46,195 nucleotides of DNA from a virus, in the IMG/VR virus record IMGVR_UViG_3300033993_001896, positions 1-46,195 of that record. The stretch is one strand, 5' to 3'. The notes beneath the pieces are model-generated. The model saw only the letters and a program-made list of their open reading frames with translations. It was not told the origin of the DNA and did not search any database. Both the position numbers and the translations under genes were made by a program. Positions within the stretch are counted from its first letter, which is position 1. The number at the start of each line of letters is the position of its first letter. Positions 7,128-28,921 of this stretch are shown in pieces.

Positions 7128-7522
7128 TGCACGTCGCGGTTCAGGTCGTCCATGAACTCGCGAGCCTCCTCGGGCACGTCGATCTCCGAGAGACTGAACA
7201 GCGTCGGCTTCGTCACCTGTCGATCTGACCGCGTGCGATCGTCCCACGTGGCTTGAACGCACGTCACGCGGGCTGCGACATACGGAGCGAACGACAGGCT
7301 CGCCTCGCTGGCTGCGATCTCGGCAGCGGAGGGCGGCGGCCGGCGAGCCGGGCGGTGCCGCGTGCGGCGGTCGTGACGCGGGGCGAGCCCAGCCACGAGC
7401 TTCATGCGGATCAACTGATCCTTCGTGATCGACCAATACGAACAGATGGCGAACATCGAGCTCGCCGATTGCCACTGCACGCGAAGGGTGGCGAAGTCAA
7501 TCGCCGCTGTGTTGCCCGCCAT
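7121..7522 (-). CDS. Hypothetical protein upstream of lysis cassette
   Basis: A 133-residue protein with an N-terminal helical part (SYWSITKDQLIRMK may form a helix-turn-helix) followed by a very basic stretch (RHDRRTRHRPARR) and an acidic C-terminal tail (EEAREFMDDL). The basic block next to a possible HTH hints at nucleic-acid binding, but no family can be named. It overlaps the glycosyltransferase end at 7497 by 26 bases, which ties it to the glycan module transcript. Confidence 0.55.
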   Translation of the reverse strand: MAGNTAAIDFATLRVQWQSASSMFAICSYWSITKDQLIRMKLVAGLAPRHDRRTRHRPARRPPPSAAEIAASEASLSFAPYVAARVTCVQATWDDRTRSDRQVTKPTLFSLSEIDVPEEAREFMDDLNRDVQW

Positions 7523-8369
7523 GCTTCACCTCTTCAGGCAGCCAGAACGACACGCACCGACTCGACGGGTTCAGACCGAAACGCTTGCCAGTTCGCTCAG
7601 AGATCGAGCGATGGAACGTCACGTGCTCGCAATCACTCCCGCTGTACGTGCCGCCGAGATACGCGTCGCCGCGGTACAGGGCCAGTTGCCCGAACGCTGA
7701 ATTGAACTCGACCGGCGGCGAGCCCACCGGCGGATGCCACGCATGGAACCAGTTCTGATCCCGCTGCCGCCAGTGGTTCAGGCGGGCGGCGAACGCGTCA
7801 TAGTTGATCCGGCCGAGCGGCACCTCGGCCCACGAGTACGATGCGAGCCCGTACCACGAACGATCCCGCTCCATGTGAGCGATGCTGGTCGCCACGCCGT
7901 CAACGCTCCACCCTGCCCACGCGTCTGTATCAAACACGATCACGTAGTCGGGCGTCGCGCCGTGGCTCACCCACCTCTGGCACGCTTCTCGGTACTCTGC
8001 CAAGGCGATCGTCCGCTCGCGTGCGATCGTGTGATTGAGATGCGGGCGACCGTTGATGTTGATTGACACTTGCCGCTGCTGCCCGTCGTGCCACTGCGAG
8101 AGCACGCCTTGCGTCTCGTCGAGTGAGTCGTTCTCGTAGATGAAGGCACTCCACTCGCGAAACATCGAGCCCGTCGCCTCGACGAGCCCGAGCGTCTGCG
8201 GAAGAAACGGCATCGCGTTCCGGCAGATCGCCACCATCGCAACCGTGGCTTCGGCGGCACGCTCGCGCCCATAGGCCACGAGCTCGGCGTACTCCTCCGC
8301 GAACTCCGCGTCGGGCGGGAGCAGCACGTCGGGCCGGTGAGACTCGATCTCGTCAACTGTGATCCGCAC
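7497..8369 (-). CDS. Glycosyltransferase with DxD motif
   Basis: A 290-residue protein of a GT-A type fold. VAMVAICRNAMPFLPQTL is the N-terminal strand-loop-helix that opens many such enzymes, ENDSLDET follows, and VIVFDTDAWAGW carries the DTD metal/nucleotide-sugar site near residue 148. A later SGSDCEHVTFHRS segment could supply acceptor-site residues. It is the last gene of the glycan module and overlaps the preceding glycosyltransferase by 17 bases. Donor and acceptor are unknown. Confidence 0.8.
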   Translation of the reverse strand: MRITVDEIESHRPDVLLPPDAEFAEEYAELVAYGRERAAEATVAMVAICRNAMPFLPQTLGLVEATGSMFREWSAFIYENDSLDETQGVLSQWHDGQQRQVSININGRPHLNHTIARERTIALAEYREACQRWVSHGATPDYVIVFDTDAWAGWSVDGVATSIAHMERDRSWYGLASYSWAEVPLGRINYDAFAARLNHWRQRDQNWFHAWHPPVGSPPVEFNSAFGQLALYRGDAYLGGTYSGSDCEHVTFHRSISERTGKRFGLNPSSRCVSFWLPEEVKHGGQHSGD

Positions 8370-9063
8370 GATCGTCCTCCCGGGTCTGCACCCACGCGAG
8401 CACCGGGTCGCCGGCGAGATCGTCCGCCGTCACCGGCACGCGATGGTTCGCCGTGTGCCACTCTGCCGAGGGCACGTGTGTGCCACGCTCTGCCCCGATG
8501 TTCTGAATCCGGCTCACCGCGGGGAACGCTTCGTATCGCCCGGCACGCAGCACGTGATTCACGATCACATCCCAAGAGGGTTCGCTTCCCGCCCAGCCGG
8601 CGGCGAGCCCGGCCCAGCGATCCCGCCACGTCGCCCAGCCCCACGGGGTGAACCAGCGCCGCAGCCCGCACTCGCCGGGGCGACCGTTCGAAATCCGCTG
8701 GTAGCCTGAGACGTTCATCACGGCGGGGTTCTCCCGGTAGCGGTCGCGTGCCCAGGCGAACCACCGCAAGGCGTCGCGCGTCGGCACGGTGTCATCCTCG
8801 AGATGCACGTGGTACTCGACCGCCGGATCGGCGAACCCGTGAGCGAACGCTTTGCCGATGGCGAGGTTGCAACCCTGGCGGTCGGCGTACACATACGGCA
8901 CAAAGCCGTATCGAGCGGCGACGTTCGCTTGATCTTGCGTCTCGTCGCACGGATCGAGCAGCACCGTCACCTTGCAATCTGCGATGCCGTCGCATTGCGA
9001 AAGCGCATCAAGCGTCGAGGCGAGATACTCGGGGCGGTTGTACGCGGAGACGGTGATATTCAC
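8353..9063 (-). CDS. Family 2-like glycosyltransferase (GTG start)
   Basis: A 236-residue protein that starts at a GTG overlapping the RmlC stop (GTGA, 9060-9063). NITVSAYNRPEYLASTLDAL is the typical GT2 opening. YHVHLEDDTVPTRDALRW contains the metal-binding acidic cluster (EDD, near residue 90), and RWFTPWGWATWRDRW is a conserved aromatic segment seen in related sugar transferases. It would move a sugar from a nucleotide donor to a surface glycan. Family call strong, substrate unknown. Confidence 0.85.
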   Translation of the reverse strand: MNITVSAYNRPEYLASTLDALSQCDGIADCKVTVLLDPCDETQDQANVAARYGFVPYVYADRQGCNLAIGKAFAHGFADPAVEYHVHLEDDTVPTRDALRWFAWARDRYRENPAVMNVSGYQRISNGRPGECGLRRWFTPWGWATWRDRWAGLAAGWAGSEPSWDVIVNHVLRAGRYEAFPAVSRIQNIGAERGTHVPSAEWHTANHRVPVTADDLAGDPVLAWVQTREDDRADHS

Positions 9064-9596
9064 GCGAGCGGATTCCAGGCGGCGTCTTTCGCCGATGTGA
9101 TCACCGCGGGCACGGCGGGCCACACGATTCCTATACCCGGATCGTCAAACCTCGCGCCGGTCTCCGACTCAGGGTGATGCCCGGCGAACGCCACCGAGTA
9201 ACTGCACCGAGATGTCGGCGAGAGCGTCAGCATCCCGTGGGCGAAGCCTCGCGGAACGAACAGGAGATTTCGCCGCTCGTGCGAGAGCGTCACGCCGACC
9301 CACTGCCGATAGGTGGGCGAGTCGGGCCGCACGTCCACCGCTACATCGAACACTTCGCCGTAGTGGCACGCCACGAGCTTCGCCTGGGCATGCGGTGCCC
9401 GTTGCCAGTGCAGCCCGCGGAGCACGCCGCACGAACTCTCGACGAACTTGGTTGAGATCCACGCCCCGGGCAGCCCGGCGCTCGCGAACTGCCACGTGTG
9501 CCACGCTTCGCCGATCCAGCCGCGTTCATCGACGTGCGGCTCGATCACCGCCTCGATCACTTCGGGCAGCCGCGTCGGGCGGAAGTCGATGTTCAT
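9060..9596 (-). CDS. rmlC: dTDP-4-dehydrorhamnose 3,5-epimerase-like protein
   Basis: A 178-residue cupin matching RmlC throughout: DERGWIGEAW near the start, GVLRGLHWQ with the catalytic-region His, GEVFDVAVDVRPDSPTYRQW, LLFVPRGFAHGMLTLS and a C-terminal DPGIGIVWP. RmlC inverts C3 and C5 of dTDP-4-keto-6-deoxyglucose on the way to dTDP-rhamnose or a related sugar. Length is normal. RmlD is encoded three genes upstream, but RmlA and RmlB are absent from the window, so the host would have to supply the intermediate. It may make a variant sugar. Confidence 0.88.
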   Translation of the reverse strand: MNIDFRPTRLPEVIEAVIEPHVDERGWIGEAWHTWQFASAGLPGAWISTKFVESSCGVLRGLHWQRAPHAQAKLVACHYGEVFDVAVDVRPDSPTYRQWVGVTLSHERRNLLFVPRGFAHGMLTLSPTSRCSYSVAFAGHHPESETGARFDDPGIGIVWPAVPAVITSAKDAAWNPLA

Positions 9597-10978
9597 TTCG
9601 TGGGGAAGTTCGTCGGGGCTCCGGTCGCGCCCGAATACTCGTGGTACTTCGGGCGGTAGTTCTCACCCAGCCAGCCGACCGTCTGCTGGAGGATGCCGTC
9701 GTGGGCGGGCGAGCCGTCGTACAGATCGAAGTTGCCGAGCGTCTCGCCGTGCCCGGCGGCGACGAGTTCTTCCCAGAGTTCGGTTCCCGGGAAGGGAATG
9801 CAATCCGAGATCTGCCAGTGCACGCGGTTGCCGTGCTCCGCCCCGAGCCGCTCGAGCCCCTGGAGCAACTCTTGATCTCGCTGCCACGATCCCGGCTTTT
9901 CTCCGGGCAGGTTTCGCATCGTCGTGAAGTGAAACTCCATGCCGCTGTAACGTGTCACGAGATACTTCAGATTCTCGTATGCGACCTGAACGTCGAGCGA
10001 TTTCTTGACGTTGTCAGAGAGCGTTTGGTTAAACGTCTCCACACCGAACCGCATCCCGACGCAGCCGGCATCCACCATGCGGTCATAGAGTTCGGGCTTG
10101 CTGGTGTCGATCCTGCCCATCATCGTCCACGGCAGCGACAGATCCTTGAGCCCGGCGAGAATCTTCTCGATGCGACTCTTGCCGAGGTTCCACGTATCGT
10201 CGTCAAACAGGATGCTCCGCATCTCCTCGCCGAGCCACGCTTTTGCCTGACGCAATTCGTCAACCACCGCGTCGGCAGAGCGTGCCCGGTAGGTGCCGTT
10301 GTTCATCACGTTGGGCCACTGGCAATACGAGCACTTGAACGGACAGCCGCGCGAGGTCATCACCGTGAGCTGGATCTTCGGCGTCGGCATCGTCGGCTCG
10401 TAGTAGTTCACAAGCATGTCAGCCGGCGGTCGCCACGGCAGGAAGTTATTCCCGCCTGGCAGCGTGTCGATGTTCGTCAGGTGCTCGAAGCGGTAGATCG
10501 GCTTCGCCTGGTCGCCGCGCTGGCAGATGTCGAGCACGGGAATGTCGGGCTCGCCGATGACGCAGTGATCGACGTGCGGCTCGTTGATCCACCGCTCGGC
10601 ATACGCTTTCATGTGCGGACCGGTGTAGACGTTCCGACAGCCGAACGATTCCTTTGCCCACTTCGCGATCCCGTCGATGATGCCGACCGTCGGCGTTGCC
10701 ACGTCATAGACCACCACGTCGGGCTTGAACGACGCGAACGCCATGCGGGTGAAGTCGAGGCTCCAGTGCCGTTGCGCGACGCCGTCATAGAACGCGCAGT
10801 CGATGCCGTGGTGGGCCGTGTAAGTCATCGCCCACGAGAGCCAGAACGGAAACGGTGCGTAGCCTGAGAAGTGCGGGCCGGGATTCGTCCAGGGCCACCG
10901 GCTGCCAGCGTTCGGGCCGGTGTAGATTTCGCCGTTCTTCCATCGGATGTGCGGGATGTTTGCGAACAGCACCTTCAT
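9593..10978 (-). CDS. B12-binding-type radical SAM enzyme
   Basis: A 461-residue protein. The first 150 residues look like a Rossmann-type cobalamin-binding domain (MKVLFANIPH start, PDVVVYDVATPTVG). Then SRGCPFKCSYCQ gives C212, C216 and C219, the CxxxCxxC site for the 4Fe-4S cluster that cleaves SAM, followed by the barrel (RSILFDDDTWN, GRIDTSKPELYDRMVDAGC, GMRFGVET). Such enzymes methylate unactivated carbons or rebuild sugars and lipids. Its place between RmlC and a glycosyltransferase suggests a modified sugar. Substrate is inferred. Confidence 0.88.
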   Translation of the reverse strand: MKVLFANIPHIRWKNGEIYTGPNAGSRWPWTNPGPHFSGYAPFPFWLSWAMTYTAHHGIDCAFYDGVAQRHWSLDFTRMAFASFKPDVVVYDVATPTVGIIDGIAKWAKESFGCRNVYTGPHMKAYAERWINEPHVDHCVIGEPDIPVLDICQRGDQAKPIYRFEHLTNIDTLPGGNNFLPWRPPADMLVNYYEPTMPTPKIQLTVMTSRGCPFKCSYCQWPNVMNNGTYRARSADAVVDELRQAKAWLGEEMRSILFDDDTWNLGKSRIEKILAGLKDLSLPWTMMGRIDTSKPELYDRMVDAGCVGMRFGVETFNQTLSDNVKKSLDVQVAYENLKYLVTRYSGMEFHFTTMRNLPGEKPGSWQRDQELLQGLERLGAEHGNRVHWQISDCIPFPGTELWEELVAAGHGETLGNFDLYDGSPAHDGILQQTVGWLGENYRPKYHEYSGATGAPTNFPTK

Positions 10979-11862
10979 AGTTTCTTCTCCAGCCAATTCA
11001 CGAGCTCGGTCATCCGGTGGGCAAACGTGTGCCGCTCAAGCACGAGCCGCCGCCCGGCGTCGCGGTACGGTTGCGTCTCGTGCGGATGCTTCAGGAAATG
11101 TCCTACCACCCGCCGCAACTCCTCGCCGCCGTCAGTGAATGCGAGGCACCCGCCGAACTCCGCTTCGAGGTGCGGCGACCAATCGCTCACCATGAAGCCG
11201 CCGCAGGCGAGCGCACAGAAGATCCTGAAGTTGAACGAGCCGTACTCGAGGTGCTCGCGGAGGTGAGCATTCAAGCAGACGCCGGCGGCCGAGTACGCTG
11301 CCGCCTCCGCTTCGACCGAGCACTTCCCGCGACACACCGGATCGTTCCACGCCGCCGGGTTGCCGAACACGACGAGCCCCTGGTCGCGGCAGGCGAGGAT
11401 GTACCGCTCGGTAGTCTCGCGGTCGCGGATGTTGTTTCCGACGAACACCACGGGCCACGCCAGTTCCGCCGGTGGGCGGGGATAGAACACCTCGGGATCG
11501 ACCGCGAACTGGAGCACGAGACCGTCGCAACACCGATCACGCAGCCCCGGCGAGGGGAACACGAACGCGTCGAAGTGCGGGCGTGCCCTTGCGAACATCT
11601 CGACCGTGCCCGGCCACTCTGGTTCGGGGAAGACGTTCTGGATGTAGAGCACCTGCAGCCCGGTCGTGCCCTTGGCGAACGGCGTGAATGACACGCAGGC
11701 ATCGGCGGGTTCCAGCCCGTTGAGCTCGGCACGCTCCACCCGTGGATCGCGGGCGAGGTACCGCACCCACGCCCGGGCGACCATCTCGTCGCCCTGGACG
11801 TTCGCCCCGTTGTTATCGGTCGAGATCGACGAGACCGACGGCACGAGGATGTTGATCTTCAT
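10975..11862 (-). CDS. GT-B type glycosyltransferase (CgeB-like)
   Basis: A 295-residue protein with two Rossmann-like halves. The N-terminal part begins MKINILVPSVSSISTDN. The C-terminal half has VVFVGNNIRDRETTERYIL, then SFNFRIFCALACGGFMVSDW and the acidic LEAEFGGCLAFTDGGEELRRVV that closes the nucleotide-sugar site in CgeB/DUF3880-type transferases. It starts at the ATG overlapping the RmlD stop. It is a third glycosyltransferase of the glycan module. Family call good, sugar unknown. Confidence 0.8.
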   Translation of the reverse strand: MKINILVPSVSSISTDNNGANVQGDEMVARAWVRYLARDPRVERAELNGLEPADACVSFTPFAKGTTGLQVLYIQNVFPEPEWPGTVEMFARARPHFDAFVFPSPGLRDRCCDGLVLQFAVDPEVFYPRPPAELAWPVVFVGNNIRDRETTERYILACRDQGLVVFGNPAAWNDPVCRGKCSVEAEAAAYSAAGVCLNAHLREHLEYGSFNFRIFCALACGGFMVSDWSPHLEAEFGGCLAFTDGGEELRRVVGHFLKHPHETQPYRDAGRRLVLERHTFAHRMTELVNWLEKKL

Positions 11863-12575
11863 GCCGTCACCAGCGAAAGGTCGCGCGGCACGAGCGGGTT
11901 GTCGCACCGGCCGGGCACGATCCGCTCTTGGTCGATGCCGTGGATCGCGGCGATGTCGCGGAAGAGTTCCAGCCGGTTCACCCGGCGGCTGCCGGCGACG
12001 TGGATGATCCCACGCGTGTCACGCTCCAGAGCCTCTACGATGCCCTGTGCGAGGCGATCGACCGGCGTCGGCGTGTTGTGCCGGTCCTCCCACGCTTCGA
12101 CCGCCTGGCCTTCGGCAAGGCGTCTCGCGAGCCACATGATCCAAGGGCAGCCCGCCGCCATGAGATGTGAGGTTCGCACCACCAACGCCCGCGGGCACGC
12201 CGCGAGCACGGCATCCTCGCCGCGAACCTTCGACACCCCGTAAGCCGTCTTCGGGTTCGGCGTATCGCCCGGCCCGTACCCGCCACGCTGCCCGTCAAAC
12301 ACGTAGTCGGTGCTCACGTACACGAACACGCCGCCGGCTAGCCGGGCGAGCGTTGCCGCGTTCGCCAGGTTCTTCTCTGCCGCCATCCGCGGGTCGGCTT
12401 CGCATGCGGCGAGGTCTTTGGTGCCGCTCGCGAACACCACGACCGGCGCGGCTTGGATACGGCGCGGCGAGGCGAGAGCCTGGAGCACGCCGATGGGGCA
12501 GGCTTCCCAGCCGAGGGAGGCGTGGAGCGAGCGACCCACGAAGCCGCGCCCGATGACTAGGTTTTTCGGAGCCAT
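11859..12575 (-). CDS. rmlD: dTDP-4-dehydrorhamnose reductase-like protein
   Basis: A 238-residue short-chain reductase. GRGFVGRSL (9-17) is the NAD(P)H-binding loop, YVSTDYVFDG (86-95) is the RmlD hallmark, and Y112/K116 in KTAYGVSK are the catalytic pair. It reduces the 4-keto group of the dTDP-sugar made by RmlB and RmlC. At 238 residues it is shorter than the usual 280-300, with a trimmed C-terminal part. The first ATG (12575) overlaps the methyltransferase gene by 19 bases. Family call firm, exact sugar open. Confidence 0.85.
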   Translation of the reverse strand: MAPKNLVIGRGFVGRSLHASLGWEACPIGVLQALASPRRIQAAPVVVFASGTKDLAACEADPRMAAEKNLANAATLARLAGGVFVYVSTDYVFDGQRGGYGPGDTPNPKTAYGVSKVRGEDAVLAACPRALVVRTSHLMAAGCPWIMWLARRLAEGQAVEAWEDRHNTPTPVDRLAQGIVEALERDTRGIIHVAGSRRVNRLELFRDIAAIHGIDQERIVPGRCDNPLVPRDLSLVTA

Positions 12576-13186
12576 ATTGCCGCTCCGTTTCGCACGCGGT
12601 CGTCCTCCCACGCGAGCCGCCACTCGGGATCGAGTTTCAGTTCGGCGTGTGCCCGGCTGCACTTGTACGCGTGGTGCACGTCGTCGAGTATCAAGCACCG
12701 TGCGTGTGGCTTCGCCAGGCGGTAGTCATCGAAGCCCGCGAACTCGCACCCGTCAACGAGCACTGCGTCAAACTGCACATCGTCGAGGTGTTCGAGGAAC
12801 CCTTCGCGGGCGTCCTCGAGGAACGCCACCGTCTCCACCCACCACGACCGCACGAGCTCTTCGGGGAATCGCAGATGATTGTGTGGCGAATTCCACACTT
12901 CCTCAAACGTCGTTGGCGTGAGCGACGCCAGCGTGATCGACGAGCCGAACACCGGCTTGATGCACGGGTAGTCGCGCACGTTCTGAACCAACTGCACGTA
13001 CCGCGTGGCGTTCGCCTCCAAGCACACGAGCTTTGGATCTTGCGCGTGCGAGAGCGCCTCGATAAGCACTTGCGTGGAGCCGAGCCCATCCCACGCCCCG
13101 ATCTCGAGCACGTGCTCGAATCCCTGCTCGCGGATCGTGCGGATGATCGCCTGCCCGAAGGCGTCGTTGCGGGTGATCTCGGGCAT
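12557..13186 (-). CDS. SAM-dependent methyltransferase (class I)
   Basis: A 209-residue protein with the SAM-binding motif VLEIGAWDGLGST (near residue 26), a second acidic strand KLVCLEANATRY and the catalytic-side VQFDAVLVDGCEFAGFDDYRLAKPHARCLILDD. This matches methyltransferases that act on small molecules or sugars (Methyltransf_24-like). It begins by TGATG overlap on RusA and leads the glycan module, so sugar O-methylation is a fair guess. It has no DNA-methylase PP(Y/F) motif, so DNA is unlikely as substrate. Confidence 0.8.
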   Translation of the reverse strand: MPEITRNDAFGQAIIRTIREQGFEHVLEIGAWDGLGSTQVLIEALSHAQDPKLVCLEANATRYVQLVQNVRDYPCIKPVFGSSITLASLTPTTFEEVWNSPHNHLRFPEELVRSWWVETVAFLEDAREGFLEHLDDVQFDAVLVDGCEFAGFDDYRLAKPHARCLILDDVHHAYKCSRAHAELKLDPEWRLAWEDDRVRNGAAIWLRKT

Positions 13187-21853: not shown

Positions 21854-24040
21854 TTACAGCCTCCCTACCGGCGGGAACAGCAACTTGATCTTCTTGGGAT
21901 CGCCCTTGAAGAAAACGAGAATCTTTTGCTCTCGCTTCGGGAACTTGCGGTAGTTCAGCGTTACCTTCGCATGAGCAAGCCTTGTGAACTCGCACTCGAG
22001 GTAAACGATCTTGTTGTAGATATGCAGCCCACGATCGCGGAAAAACAACTCGTGCTCCGCTTCGCACCCGTAGTACCCACCGTGCTTGTCGCGAGAGTCG
22101 CCGGTCATGACGACAAAGAAACGGTCGTCATCCAGCGCGTCGATCGCACGCTGATAGCCGGCGAATAGCATGTCGCGGAACTCCGCGTAGGTGGGCAGGC
22201 TGTTCAACTCGCCCGCAGGGGGGTTGCCGTCGTAGTCCAGGTACTCCTCGACTTGGTAATACGGCGGGCACGTGAAGCAAAGGTCGAACTTGCCTTCGGG
22301 CGTGTACTGGCTGCTGTCAGACTGAACCCACGTTGCCGATGACAACTGCGAGCAGATCGCATTATTGGCGTCGCACTGGTTCTTTCTGATCTCGCTGGCG
22401 ACGTACTCCAATCCATAGGACGCAGTAACAAAGCCGAACTGAACGCCGCCGCCGAATGGGTTGTAAACGCGGCGGCCGCCGCTCGGCATGAAAAACCGCA
22501 GGATCGTCTCGCATGCCACCGGGTCAAGAACAGAAGCGTTCCCGTTGAACGACTTACCGCGAACTTCCTTGACGCCGTCGCCCTCTATCACCCTCTCCGT
22601 TAGCACGACATTCGACATGCCGTTGCTTCCCTGCCAGCAGCCATCGCGCGTCGCATACGTGGCGTTGGCAACTCCGGCCGCCTTCCCGGCTTCGTTGATC
22701 TTGGCGTTCCACTCGCGCTTCATCTTCAGCCAGTCGGCCCGCGTCGTCGTCCAGGCGTTCGTCATGGTTGCGTGAGCCAACCGCTTGAGCCTGGCTTGCG
22801 GTTCAGTGCCATGAACCATGTAGCAGTAGCCGCTGAGTTCGAGGTACGTCCAAAAACCGCATCCCTCAAACACACTGGGGCGTTCCAGCTTGTGTTTTGT
22901 GCTGCACGTCAGAAACATCGGATAGCCGAATGTGTTCCTCTGCACGATCGCATCAACCATCATTTGATACTGCGCTTTGTTTTCGAGGCCCGGCACCATC
23001 GCGGACTGAAGTAAACAAAACTCCCCGGCTTCGTGATTGACTTGAAACGTGAAAAATCCGGTGAACGCTCCGTCCACGAGAAGCACGATTGCAGAATGAA
23101 TCTGCATGTTTTTGCGGGCCGCACGGTAGGCAACCTTGTCTTCGATCGCGAGCTTTGCGATTGCGTTTTGATATTCAGACCCGAGCACCTGTTCGACGTA
23201 TACGCATTCAACTGTCTCGCATGGCAAAAGAGTCTTCATCGCTTGCTGCCTTTCAAATGCTCCCAGGACTCCGCACTGGTCGGGGCACTGTTCGCAAGTG
23301 CCGATGTATGTCGAATGGTTTTCGATGCTGACCCACGCCCCGCCGCCTAGGTTTTTGTGACGCTCAATCAAGATGTCTCCGGCGATGACTCGCGGATCTG
23401 AGGCCGGTATTCGCAAGGGATTGTCAATTACTAACTCGCCAGCCGTTTCAAAAATTGAATCTTGAATTGCAGCCATGCGGCGACCCTCTTCTGTGTCGCC
23501 AAACTTGCACGAAACAACCCGAAGCAAAGACCGCATGCCAAAGTCAGTGGCTCGTCTCCACTCGCGAAGCCTGACGTGTAACTCCGCGGGCGTGTCTAGC
23601 GCGGAGACTGAAGTGTTCAGCACGACCCCAGCGGCGGCCATTCGCGCCATGTAATCATCGCTTGCTTTAATCCAGTGTTTAGTAACCACGACCGGCGTCT
23701 TTAGCTTTCCGAGCCACTCGCAAGCCTCTACGGTCAACTCCCAGTCGTGGCACGGGTCTCCCATGTTTCCGATGCGAAACCACGTCGCCGGATGAGCCAT
23801 CAGTTGACGCTCGATCACCGGCTTTTCGCGTTCGTCAATCTGCCTGCTGACGCTGGTAGGAAAATCAAAGCCGTACAGTTCAGCGGTTTTGTTGGCGTAA
23901 CAGTGCCCATAACATCCACCGTCTGGCCTGGCCTTCATGCCAAGCGTGCAGCCCTTGACGGTGTCGATGTCGATAACGCCCTTGCGATTACTCGACACCG
24001 TTAGTTTCGGCTTGTATCGCTCAACTAGAAGCCTTCGCAT
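21854..24040 (-). CDS. Radical-SAM-like / GNAT-like / DNA methyltransferase fusion
   Basis: A 728-residue multidomain protein. Residues 25-265: Cys-rich region with C31, C43 and C47 (GGCYGHCYAN), a strand-helix barrel (WFRIGNMGDPCHDWELTVEACEWL, TPVVVTKHW, NTSVSALDT) and a second cluster C249/C252/C256, like DUF5131-type radical SAM proteins. Residues 275-410 alternate strands and helices as in GNAT or Mom-like folds. Residues 500-715 form a methyltransferase with VYNPFGGG (motif I, 525-532) and CFTCPPYYQ (motif IV, 588-596). It may hypermodify phage DNA. Domains 1 and 3 are good, domain 2 tentative. Confidence 0.7.
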   Translation of the reverse strand: MRRLLVERYKPKLTVSSNRKGVIDIDTVKGCTLGMKARPDGGCYGHCYANKTAELYGFDFPTSVSRQIDEREKPVIERQLMAHPATWFRIGNMGDPCHDWELTVEACEWLGKLKTPVVVTKHWIKASDDYMARMAAAGVVLNTSVSALDTPAELHVRLREWRRATDFGMRSLLRVVSCKFGDTEEGRRMAAIQDSIFETAGELVIDNPLRIPASDPRVIAGDILIERHKNLGGGAWVSIENHSTYIGTCEQCPDQCGVLGAFERQQAMKTLLPCETVECVYVEQVLGSEYQNAIAKLAIEDKVAYRAARKNMQIHSAIVLLVDGAFTGFFTFQVNHEAGEFCLLQSAMVPGLENKAQYQMMVDAIVQRNTFGYPMFLTCSTKHKLERPSVFEGCGFWTYLELSGYCYMVHGTEPQARLKRLAHATMTNAWTTTRADWLKMKREWNAKINEAGKAAGVANATYATRDGCWQGSNGMSNVVLTERVIEGDGVKEVRGKSFNGNASVLDPVACETILRFFMPSGGRRVYNPFGGGVQFGFVTASYGLEYVASEIRKNQCDANNAICSQLSSATWVQSDSSQYTPEGKFDLCFTCPPYYQVEEYLDYDGNPPAGELNSLPTYAEFRDMLFAGYQRAIDALDDDRFFVVMTGDSRDKHGGYYGCEAEHELFFRDRGLHIYNKIVYLECEFTRLAHAKVTLNYRKFPKREQKILVFFKGDPKKIKLLFPPVGRL

Positions 24041-28024: not shown

Positions 28025-28921
28025 ATGGACCGTCTGATCGACATCCTGAACGACGATTATTCGCTGCTTCGCGGGCTGAAGCCGAAGGCTCACCTACAGT
28101 TTCGGCTCTCAATCGAGAAGTTCCGCGACCACCTGGGGAGAGACCCAGTTGTGTCGGATCTGACCGGCGTGGCGGTGCAGCGTTTTCTTTCGGCGCGAAA
28201 AGCCAAGGTGTCGATCGCCACGACCGTCAAGGATCGCACGCATATCTGTGCCCTCTGGAATCACCTGTTCCGCCTGCGGCGAGTCGATGTCGCCCCTGCG
28301 GCAGTGCTGCCGCCCATGCGGGCTCCCAAACGCGTCCCGAAGGCGTACAAGGCCGACGAGGTGTCGGCCGTGATTCGGGCGGCGCTGGCCTATCCAGGGG
28401 GCGTAGCGGGCAAGCCAGCGAATATCTGGCACGCCTCGCTGATCCGGGCGGCTTTTGAGACGGCAGAACGCGTAGGAGCTCTGCTCGCCGTCGAGTGGCG
28501 GGATGTCGATCTCGACGAGCGGGTGATCCTTTTGCGGGCAGAGAACCGCAAAGGCGGGTATCGCGACCTACTGCGGCCGATCTCGTCTGAAACGGCCTCC
28601 TGGCTGCGTCAGTTGCGGCGTGGATCGCCAGACAAGGCGCTCGTGTGGGAATGGGACAGGGTGCCAGGGCACCTCTGGTATCACCTCCGGGCAATCTGCA
28701 AGCGGGCCGGCGTGCCAGCCAGGGGATACCACGGGTTTCGTAAGTCTGCGGCTTCGTACCTAGCCGCCGCCGGCGGGCTCGGGGAAGCCGCCTCGGCCCT
28801 CGGGCACGCGTCCCCCACCACGACTCAGACCCACTACATCGACCCTACAATCGCCAAGCCGACGCGGACGTTCGTGGATATGCTGCCGCGAATCGACCTC
28901 GAAGATTCGCCGTCTCAATGA
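28025..28921 (+). CDS. int: Tyrosine integrase
   Basis: A 298-residue recombinase and the only plus-strand gene. An N-terminal core-binding domain (about 10-95) is followed by the catalytic domain with R149 (ETAERVGALL), K176 (NRKGG), H236/R239 (HGFR), H261 (LGHAS) and Y271 (THYID). All catalytic residues are present, and length is typical. AAAAGGAGGCAATC is the ribosome site. It faces away from the HTH regulator and toward a hairpin. It should integrate the phage at a host site; the attachment core was not found. Confidence 0.93.
   Translation: MDRLIDILNDDYSLLRGLKPKAHLQFRLSIEKFRDHLGRDPVVSDLTGVAVQRFLSARKAKVSIATTVKDRTHICALWNHLFRLRRVDVAPAAVLPPMRAPKRVPKAYKADEVSAVIRAALAYPGGVAGKPANIWHASLIRAAFETAERVGALLAVEWRDVDLDERVILLRAENRKGGYRDLLRPISSETASWLRQLRRGSPDKALVWEWDRVPGHLWYHLRAICKRAGVPARGYHGFRKSAASYLAAAGGLGEAASALGHASPTTTQTHYIDPTIAKPTRTFVDMLPRIDLEDSPSQ

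Follow-up and report, generated by a model that had tools for sequence, protein, structure and literature searches.

The gene described here encodes, in one chain, a radical SAM domain, a GNAT-fold domain and a predicted amino-directed SAM-dependent transferase, and together with its relatives it makes up a genuine phage system, which is widespread and conserved and whose predicted catalytic residues are invariant. We put the probability at about one half that the phage uses this protein to hypermodify bases, most likely those of DNA. That the three enzymes act in one pathway is highly probable.

A single reading frame joins three enzyme domains

The window, by which we mean the whole stretch of DNA analysed, is a virus record of 46,195 bases whose gene content (capsid, tape measure, DnaB-like helicase, sliding clamp, RusA and two integrases) is that of a tailed temperate phage. 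A first-pass annotation had placed a 728-residue gene at 21854-24040. These coordinates hold and the gene lies on the minus strand, which has 728 open codons from the ATG, whereas the plus-strand frame over the same interval contains many stops. The A of the ATG is also the final base of the TGA of an upstream 121-residue gene. The six cysteines singled out in that annotation (C31, C43, C47, C249, C252 and C256) and the CPPYY motif (residues 591-595) were likewise found at the residues it gave. The features discussed below are as follows.

21854..24040, minus strand: gene for the radical SAM-GNAT-transferase fusion (728 aa; ATG at 24040)
23246..24040, minus strand: radical-SAM-fold domain (type 1), a partial TIM barrel, residues 1-265 (AlphaFold2 and VIA-align)
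23900..23950, minus strand: C31-x11-C43-x3-C47, cysteines of the predicted [4Fe-4S]/SAM cluster, in the loop that follows strand 1 (invariant, 115/115)
23273..23296, minus strand: C249-x2-C252-x3-C256, predicted auxiliary cluster (invariant, 115/115)
22808..23215, minus strand: GNAT-fold domain without the acetyl-CoA loop, residues 276-411 (structural match and motif survey)
21902..22792, minus strand: linker and putative SAM-dependent amino-transferase/methyltransferase domain, residues 417-713 (structural match and PHROGs)
22445..22462, minus strand: motif I, NPFGGG (527-532), predicted SAM binding (123/123)
22256..22270, minus strand: motif IV, CPPYY (591-595), predicted catalytic (123/123)

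A first scan of IMG/VR returned 128 relatives of the fusion protein, and the loci of the best 80 of these were examined. Bacterial genomes contain a further six relatives (in Desulfobacterales, Smithella, Desulfobacula, Massilibacteroides and Riemerella), the Riemerella relative comprising the transferase part only. L018, L022 and the second ORF of L019 matched none of the three sequence sets and were excluded from the alignments. Purifying selection on the gene is strong in all three thirds when it is compared with its closest relatives: between the window and L002, dN/dS is 0.02 across the whole gene and 0.05, 0.00 and 0.01 in successive thirds, while for the comparison with L003 dS is saturated. 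The gene and its conserved residues lie far above chance expectation.

Sequence searches place only the C-terminal part of the protein in known families. Pfam gave no match over cut-off anywhere in the fusion protein, PHROGs match its last third alone, and all 25 cultured-phage matches are confined to the transferase part, with none to the GNAT part, the radical SAM domain or the separate type-1 protein. A sequence search of solved structures with the window protein gave two toxin matches only (E 0.5-0.6), which we take as chance matches of the cysteine region; the family profile gave one methylase (E 0.16), and the type-2 radical SAM proteins described below gave none. The predicted structure of the whole protein has a mean pLDDT of 84 and a pTM of 0.59, so the placement of the domains relative to one another is uncertain.

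Elsewhere in the window, tyrosine-integrase-like genes lie on opposite strands at 21030-22067 (minus), directly after the fusion gene, and at 28025-28921 (plus). The region 9593-12698 (minus) encodes another radical SAM protein, of 467 aa (PF04055, E 1e-11), whose neighbours are an RmlD-like gene and a glycosyltransferase gene. More glycosyltransferase-like ORFs follow at 7497-9123, so that the whole looks like a sugar cluster of an unusual kind for a phage.

The N-terminal domain is predicted to be a radical SAM barrel

Folded alone with AlphaFold2, residues 1-265 give a pLDDT of 92.6 and a pTM of 0.90, and all 50 of their best structural matches in VIA-align are radical SAM enzymes, which bears out the earlier suggestion that the first part is radical-SAM-like. 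The predicted structure is a (beta/alpha)6-type partial TIM barrel. Its top match is spore photoproduct lyase (4fhf; Z 12.9, 4.4 Å, 225 residues), with a Foldseek E of 5.5e-4 between the two, and TYW1 and RlmN are also within the structural matches. Spore photoproduct lyase acts on DNA, and we take this nearest radical SAM fold as pointing to a DNA target.

The cysteines that bind the cluster in radical SAM enzymes are usually spaced CX3CX2C, although other spacings are also known. In the window protein the three cluster cysteines are present after strand 1 but their spacing differs from the usual one; in 114 distinct type-1 relatives this first trio reads CX(9-25)CX3C, always ending CX3CY. 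These 114 sequences and the window make up the set of 115 in which both cysteine trios are invariant. By hmmscan the type-1 domain has no match to PF04055, whereas the type-2 partners do match, and DUF5131 (PF07505) is matched by 3 of 112 members with a best E of 0.001. The contig of the near relative L003 bears a radical SAM domain at both ends (L181 and L182), each 83% to the window, representing either end redundancy or a second copy.

The middle domain has a GNAT fold and lacks the acetyl-CoA loop

In the predicted structure residues 276-411 match many GNATs with Z 14-16 over about 130 residues, the best being 1xeb (Z 15.8, 2.2 Å, 130 residues). Of the two possibilities raised by the first-pass annotation for this unit, GNAT or Mom-like, the first therefore stands. 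Mom of phage Mu (PF25680) represents a GNAT-type fold in phage DNA modification, but it has no profile similarity to the middle domain (profile comparison probability 0.1%) and PF25680 is absent from the window, so the Mom alternative was rejected. Of the 19 records searched, 6 have separate Mom-family genes that score above cut-off, and the window has none; such genes lie at L003:358-1092, L005:10158-10832, L030:8478-9188, L054:6730-7341 and L071:17822-18496.

The acetyl-CoA pyrophosphate loop, Q/R-x-x-G-x-G/A, was found in 0 of 123 GNAT-transferase sequences. For this reason we class the domain as GNAT-fold rather than as an acetyltransferase, and acyl transfer by it is doubtful. Across the same 123 sequences residues 349-357 are variable while the EFCLLQS core is conserved, and E340, C342 to S346, Y358 and R306 to S316 (except isoleucine 314) are at least 98% constant. 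Judging from these alignments, the domain appears to have lost the acetyl-CoA loop and gained a different conserved core in its place. A GNAT paralogue that lies right after the GNAT-transferase gene in L019 (L019:5254-5871, cut by the contig end) is homologous to the window domain (hhalign probability 98.8%) and retains a canonical loop, KWKGNGLA, with a Pfam GNAT match just under cut-off (E 0.0023); the domain therefore probably derives from a true GNAT. Used as a query, the paralogue matched nothing but itself.

The C-terminal domain resembles phage ParB-methylases and tRNA methyltransferases

The last third has a predicted class I methyltransferase fold, as first proposed, with Trm11, TrmN and Trm14 nearest (Z 16-17) and aTrm11 the closest structural match (5e71; Z 17.1, 2.6 Å, 176 residues). 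Among the outcomes that the first-pass annotation had named as refuting it was a structure prediction lacking either a barrel with a cluster site or a methyltransferase fold; prediction found both the barrel, with its cluster-cysteine site, and the methyltransferase fold. Among PHROGs, phrog_12517 (E 7.5e-38) and phrog_498, a DNA methyltransferase (E 1.9e-35), match this part, and PADLOC models of type II methyltransferases resemble it. NPFGGGVQ and CPPYY are invariant in all 123 GNAT-transferase sequences. Motif I reads NPFGGG, the form in amino-directed methyltransferases being FxGxG, and motif IV has C where amino-directed methyltransferases have D, N or S, as is also the case in the sister ParB-methylases. 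From these models and motifs we predict that the domain is a SAM-dependent transferase acting on amino groups and that phage ParB-methylases are its relatives.

The ParB-methylases (phrog_498 and phrog_12517; Listeria phage B054 gp77 and Enterococcus phage phiFL3A gp36) have a homologous transferase domain and share the CPPY motif IV and a W-rich linker with the window protein. They differ in that their N-terminal domain is ParB and a radical SAM partner is absent, where the window protein has a GNAT fold, a radical SAM domain and motif I NPFGGG. We prefer DNA over RNA as the target because the transferase groups with these phage ParB-methylases, among them Bce_0392, described as an adenine methylase with a fused ParB domain that has nicking activity (PMC5512222).

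The nearest solved transferases are tRNA m2G methyltransferases, which act on tRNA, and an RNA target accordingly keeps some probability. The trio would then modify host or phage tRNA or rRNA in infection, like Trm11-, TYW1- or Elp3-like enzymes, a reading that draws on the best solved transferase matches (Trm11, TrmN and Trm14) and on the presence of TYW1 and RlmN among the radical SAM matches. Elp3 itself unites radical SAM and GNAT folds that act jointly on a nucleobase, a tRNA uridine, although it keeps acetyl-CoA binding, unlike the window domain, and has no methyltransferase domain. Elp3 is absent among the fold matches listed, and kinship is possible. No THUMP or other RNA-binding domain was found in the family scans, and the sister transferases bear ParB domains instead; we regard RNA hypermodification as a minority possibility.

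GNAT and class I methyltransferase folds handle many substrates, which leaves a slim chance that the target is a small molecule (a signalling compound, for example) or a protein rather than a nucleic acid. The homology to ParB-methylases speaks against this, as do the terminase or portal genes that adjoin the family genes in L020, L150 and L251, where no biosynthetic cluster was seen.

In a prophage-like locus of Riemerella (L087:5683-7323) the transferase is fused to a FemAB/LPG-synthase-like acyltransferase domain (a weak match, E 0.011), and no radical SAM gene was seen on this contig.

Radical SAM and GNAT-transferase proteins form a conserved system

The commonest form of the system is split, with a GNAT-transferase of ~463 residues and a separate radical SAM gene of ~275 residues. 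Among 122 distinct GNAT-transferases the type-1 radical SAM domain is fused in 43, encoded downstream in 50 and upstream in 15, a second kind of radical SAM protein (type 2) is encoded downstream in 10, and 4 have no radical SAM; this set mixes scans that include radical SAM patterns, which biases it towards presence, and L044 is counted as downstream. An unbiased count comes from the scan with patterns in the GNAT and transferase parts only, in which a radical SAM protein was present in 76 of 80 loci, or 64 of 67 distinct ORFs (best 80 of 251 relatives). Among control loci, which hold related ParB-type transferases, the count was 0 of 94. Scanning with the radical SAM profile gave a GNAT-transferase sequence in 72 of 80 loci (best 80 of 222 relatives), and some of the eight loci without one are cut by contig ends. 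Where a separate radical SAM gene lies downstream, its start overlaps the stop of the transferase gene by 1 or 4 bases in 56 of 61 cases when the start nearest the stop is chosen, a choice that favours overlaps. The radical SAM and GNAT-transferase proteins are a conserved system, not a one-off fusion, and the link of the GNAT-transferase unit to radical SAM proteins looks obligate.

The type-2 proteins have the canonical CX3CX2C motif and match Pfam Radical_SAM (PF04055, E 2.6e-11), weakly resemble the spore photoproduct lyase family and, when their profile is compared with that of type 1, reach only 53%. Mapped onto the tree, type 2 requires 10 changes, of which at least 6 are forced by supported branches, and fusion requires 13, of which 8 are forced. 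Since a different radical SAM protein repeatedly fills the same slot, the radical step itself appears to be required.

Two of the four cases without radical SAM, L020 and L086, are at contig ends, and a third, L019, encodes another CX3CX2C protein ~3 kb upstream of its GNAT-transferase. The L149/L150 lineage is a true exception, with a GNAT-transferase and no radical SAM gene in a 40.8-kb record. This lineage and the L087 prophage transferase, both without a radical SAM neighbour, would suit a phage DNA methyltransferase, its SAM motif and CPPY being intact, that makes a plain N-methyl product. In that case the other two parts would serve in regulation, on another substrate or as structure. 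The invariant cluster cysteines, the repeated replacement of the radical SAM protein and the fusion all argue that the radical step is needed, and we consider a plain methyl product unlikely.

The likeness of type 1, and more weakly of type 2, to spore photoproduct lyase raises the alternative of lesion repair of that type, with the linked methylase marking or protecting DNA. This would give no reason for the strict co-inheritance of transferase and GNAT fold. The lyase, for all that it is the best fold match, has 14% identity to the window domain and another cysteine spacing, and to our knowledge has neither a second three-cysteine site nor a transferase partner, unlike the window protein. 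A repair function is therefore very improbable.

The context of the gene also bears on its proposed partners. Apart from a very weak match in L003, the upstream 121-residue gene has a counterpart in L002 alone, the closest relative (59%), and a DUF1599-like gene recurs in five loci only, from about four records; since so few relatives carry them, neither is a conserved partner. Of the fused modification enzyme that the first-pass annotation envisaged, the three-part architecture has thus been upheld and is backed by gene context, while Mom and the partner genes have fallen away.

Several loci depart from the usual arrangement. Type-1 radical SAM genes without a GNAT-transferase lie beside ParB-like and PAPS-reductase-like genes in L249:4687-7352 and beside ParB-like and second radical SAM genes in L242:5860-9236, and L244 likewise has ParB-like genes near such a radical SAM gene. 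Type-2 genes without a GNAT-transferase adjoin ParB-like genes in L161:5989-8007 and L169:5980-7355, with a cytosine-methylase-like gene also adjoining in L161. In the Massilibacteroides genome an 88-residue type-2 remnant that has lost its middle follows an intact GNAT-transferase (L085:7569-7832). A 243-residue CX3CX2C protein with a C-terminal cysteine cluster and no family match is the one encoded upstream in L019 (L019:87-818); it may represent yet another type of radical SAM partner.

Sister transferases adjoin SAM decarboxylase and PLP enzymes

In Croceibacter phage P2559S and Pseudomonas phage ZRG1 a SAM decarboxylase gene overlaps the transferase gene, and on a Borrelia turcica plasmid one lies just before it. 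TIGR03330 matches these decarboxylases, above cut-off only for ZRG1. Such pairs are found at L255:3644-5285, L257:2482-4327 and L268:1512-3193 and among L273-L352. Spermidine was restored when an E. coli speD mutant received the P2559S enzyme, which is thus a genuine SAM decarboxylase (PMC9992855); a word search of that paper found no mention of methylases. An adjacent SAM decarboxylase suggests that the transferase draws on decarboxylated SAM and so adds aminopropyl groups to bases. As a partner of the radical SAM family, AdoMet decarboxylase was considered and rejected, with 0 of 31 records containing it and none in the fetched GNAT-transferase loci.

Our survey of motif I covered 71 distinct transferases, drawn from cultured phages and from a scan of the ZRG1 type (best 80 of 126 relatives), skipping 7 of 97 ORFs in which CPPY or the motif was missing and merging identical domains. 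A SAM decarboxylase is present in the fetched locus of 51 of 56 transferases with Asp in motif I (FxGD) and 0 of 15 with Gly (FxGG). Fisher's test gives p 1.7e-11 when shared ancestry is ignored; supported branches provide only 2 independent pairs, a number that gives a corrected test little power, and shared ancestry accounts for much of the association. The acidic residue could disfavour the carboxylate of SAM.

A fold-type-II PLP enzyme follows the transferase directly in Mycobacterium phage AlanGrant and Microcystis phage Mae-JY30, where the best NCBIfam models are ACC deaminase and serine/threonine dehydratase (below cut-off), and in Pam4_70 a PLP-like stretch is inserted within the transferase between motifs I and IV. 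The ACC-deaminase/dehydratase-like loci are L258:1406-2275, L259:3328-4038 and L266:1012-3501, and the Mae-JY30 enzyme is annotated as a DNA modification methylase.

Because sister transferases are paired with SAM decarboxylase or ACC-deaminase-like enzymes, the family may transfer more than methyl groups. Tentatively, and as a minority reading, the transferases could be in the main not methylases but a modular phage DNA aminoalkylation platform of which the window fusion is the radical SAM branch. Such enzymes would add 3-amino-3-carboxypropyl from SAM, or aminopropyl from decarboxylated SAM where a decarboxylase adjoins, and the radical SAM, GNAT-fold and ACC-deaminase-like PLP modules would be interchangeable enzymes that tailor the side chain.

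Discussion

Stepwise base hypermodification is the most likely function of the fusion protein, and we infer that its target is DNA and that its steps fall on one base. In the first step the C-terminal domain would flip a base out and move a SAM-derived alkyl group, either methyl or possibly the larger amino-acid chain of SAM, onto an exocyclic amine. The radical SAM domain would then cleave SAM via its predicted [4Fe-4S] cluster and abstract a hydrogen, either from the newly added group or from an adjacent base carbon, which would open the way to a new bond, and the GNAT-fold domain may finally bind a co-substrate or complete the side chain. The likely use would be escape from host restriction and CRISPR nucleases. 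The radical step has a precedent in wybutosine synthesis, where Trm5 methylates a guanine nitrogen and TYW1 then acts on that N-methyl group. Counting against base hypermodification of DNA are the kinship with tRNA m2G methyltransferases, the lost acetyl-CoA loop, the L149/L150 exception, the eight of 80 radical SAM loci that show no GNAT-transferase and the low pTM of the whole model.

Pseudomonas M6 and Salmonella ViI phages offer a comparison, in that radical SAM and acetyltransferase enzymes take part in their post-replicative hypermodification of thymidine. These pathways consist of separate genes and start from 5-hydroxymethyl-dU via a pyrophosphorylase, and we know of none in which a SAM transferase directed at amino groups is fused to the other enzymes. 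The separate pieces of the system are already known; a published description of their combination was not found. Our literature search, which did not reach most subscription journals, returned no description of the fusion or of phage DNA aminopropylation, and further papers were used for comparison (PMC10407285, PMC8670742, PMC10853773 and PMC7641849).

If base hypermodification of DNA is the correct reading, these phages would make a hypermodified base by a route that is widespread and so far undescribed, with transferase and radical SAM activities in one chain, and this would be a first DNA counterpart of the Trm5-TYW1 sequence of tRNA. A new nucleoside is then to be expected, and LC-MS or nanopore data would reveal it directly. 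The system would also be a new source of restriction-resistant DNA and of enzymes that functionalise C-H bonds on nucleic acids. For the wider family, the sister pairs with SAM decarboxylase sharpen the question of what the ParB-methylases do, and whether they may place aminopropyl groups on DNA.
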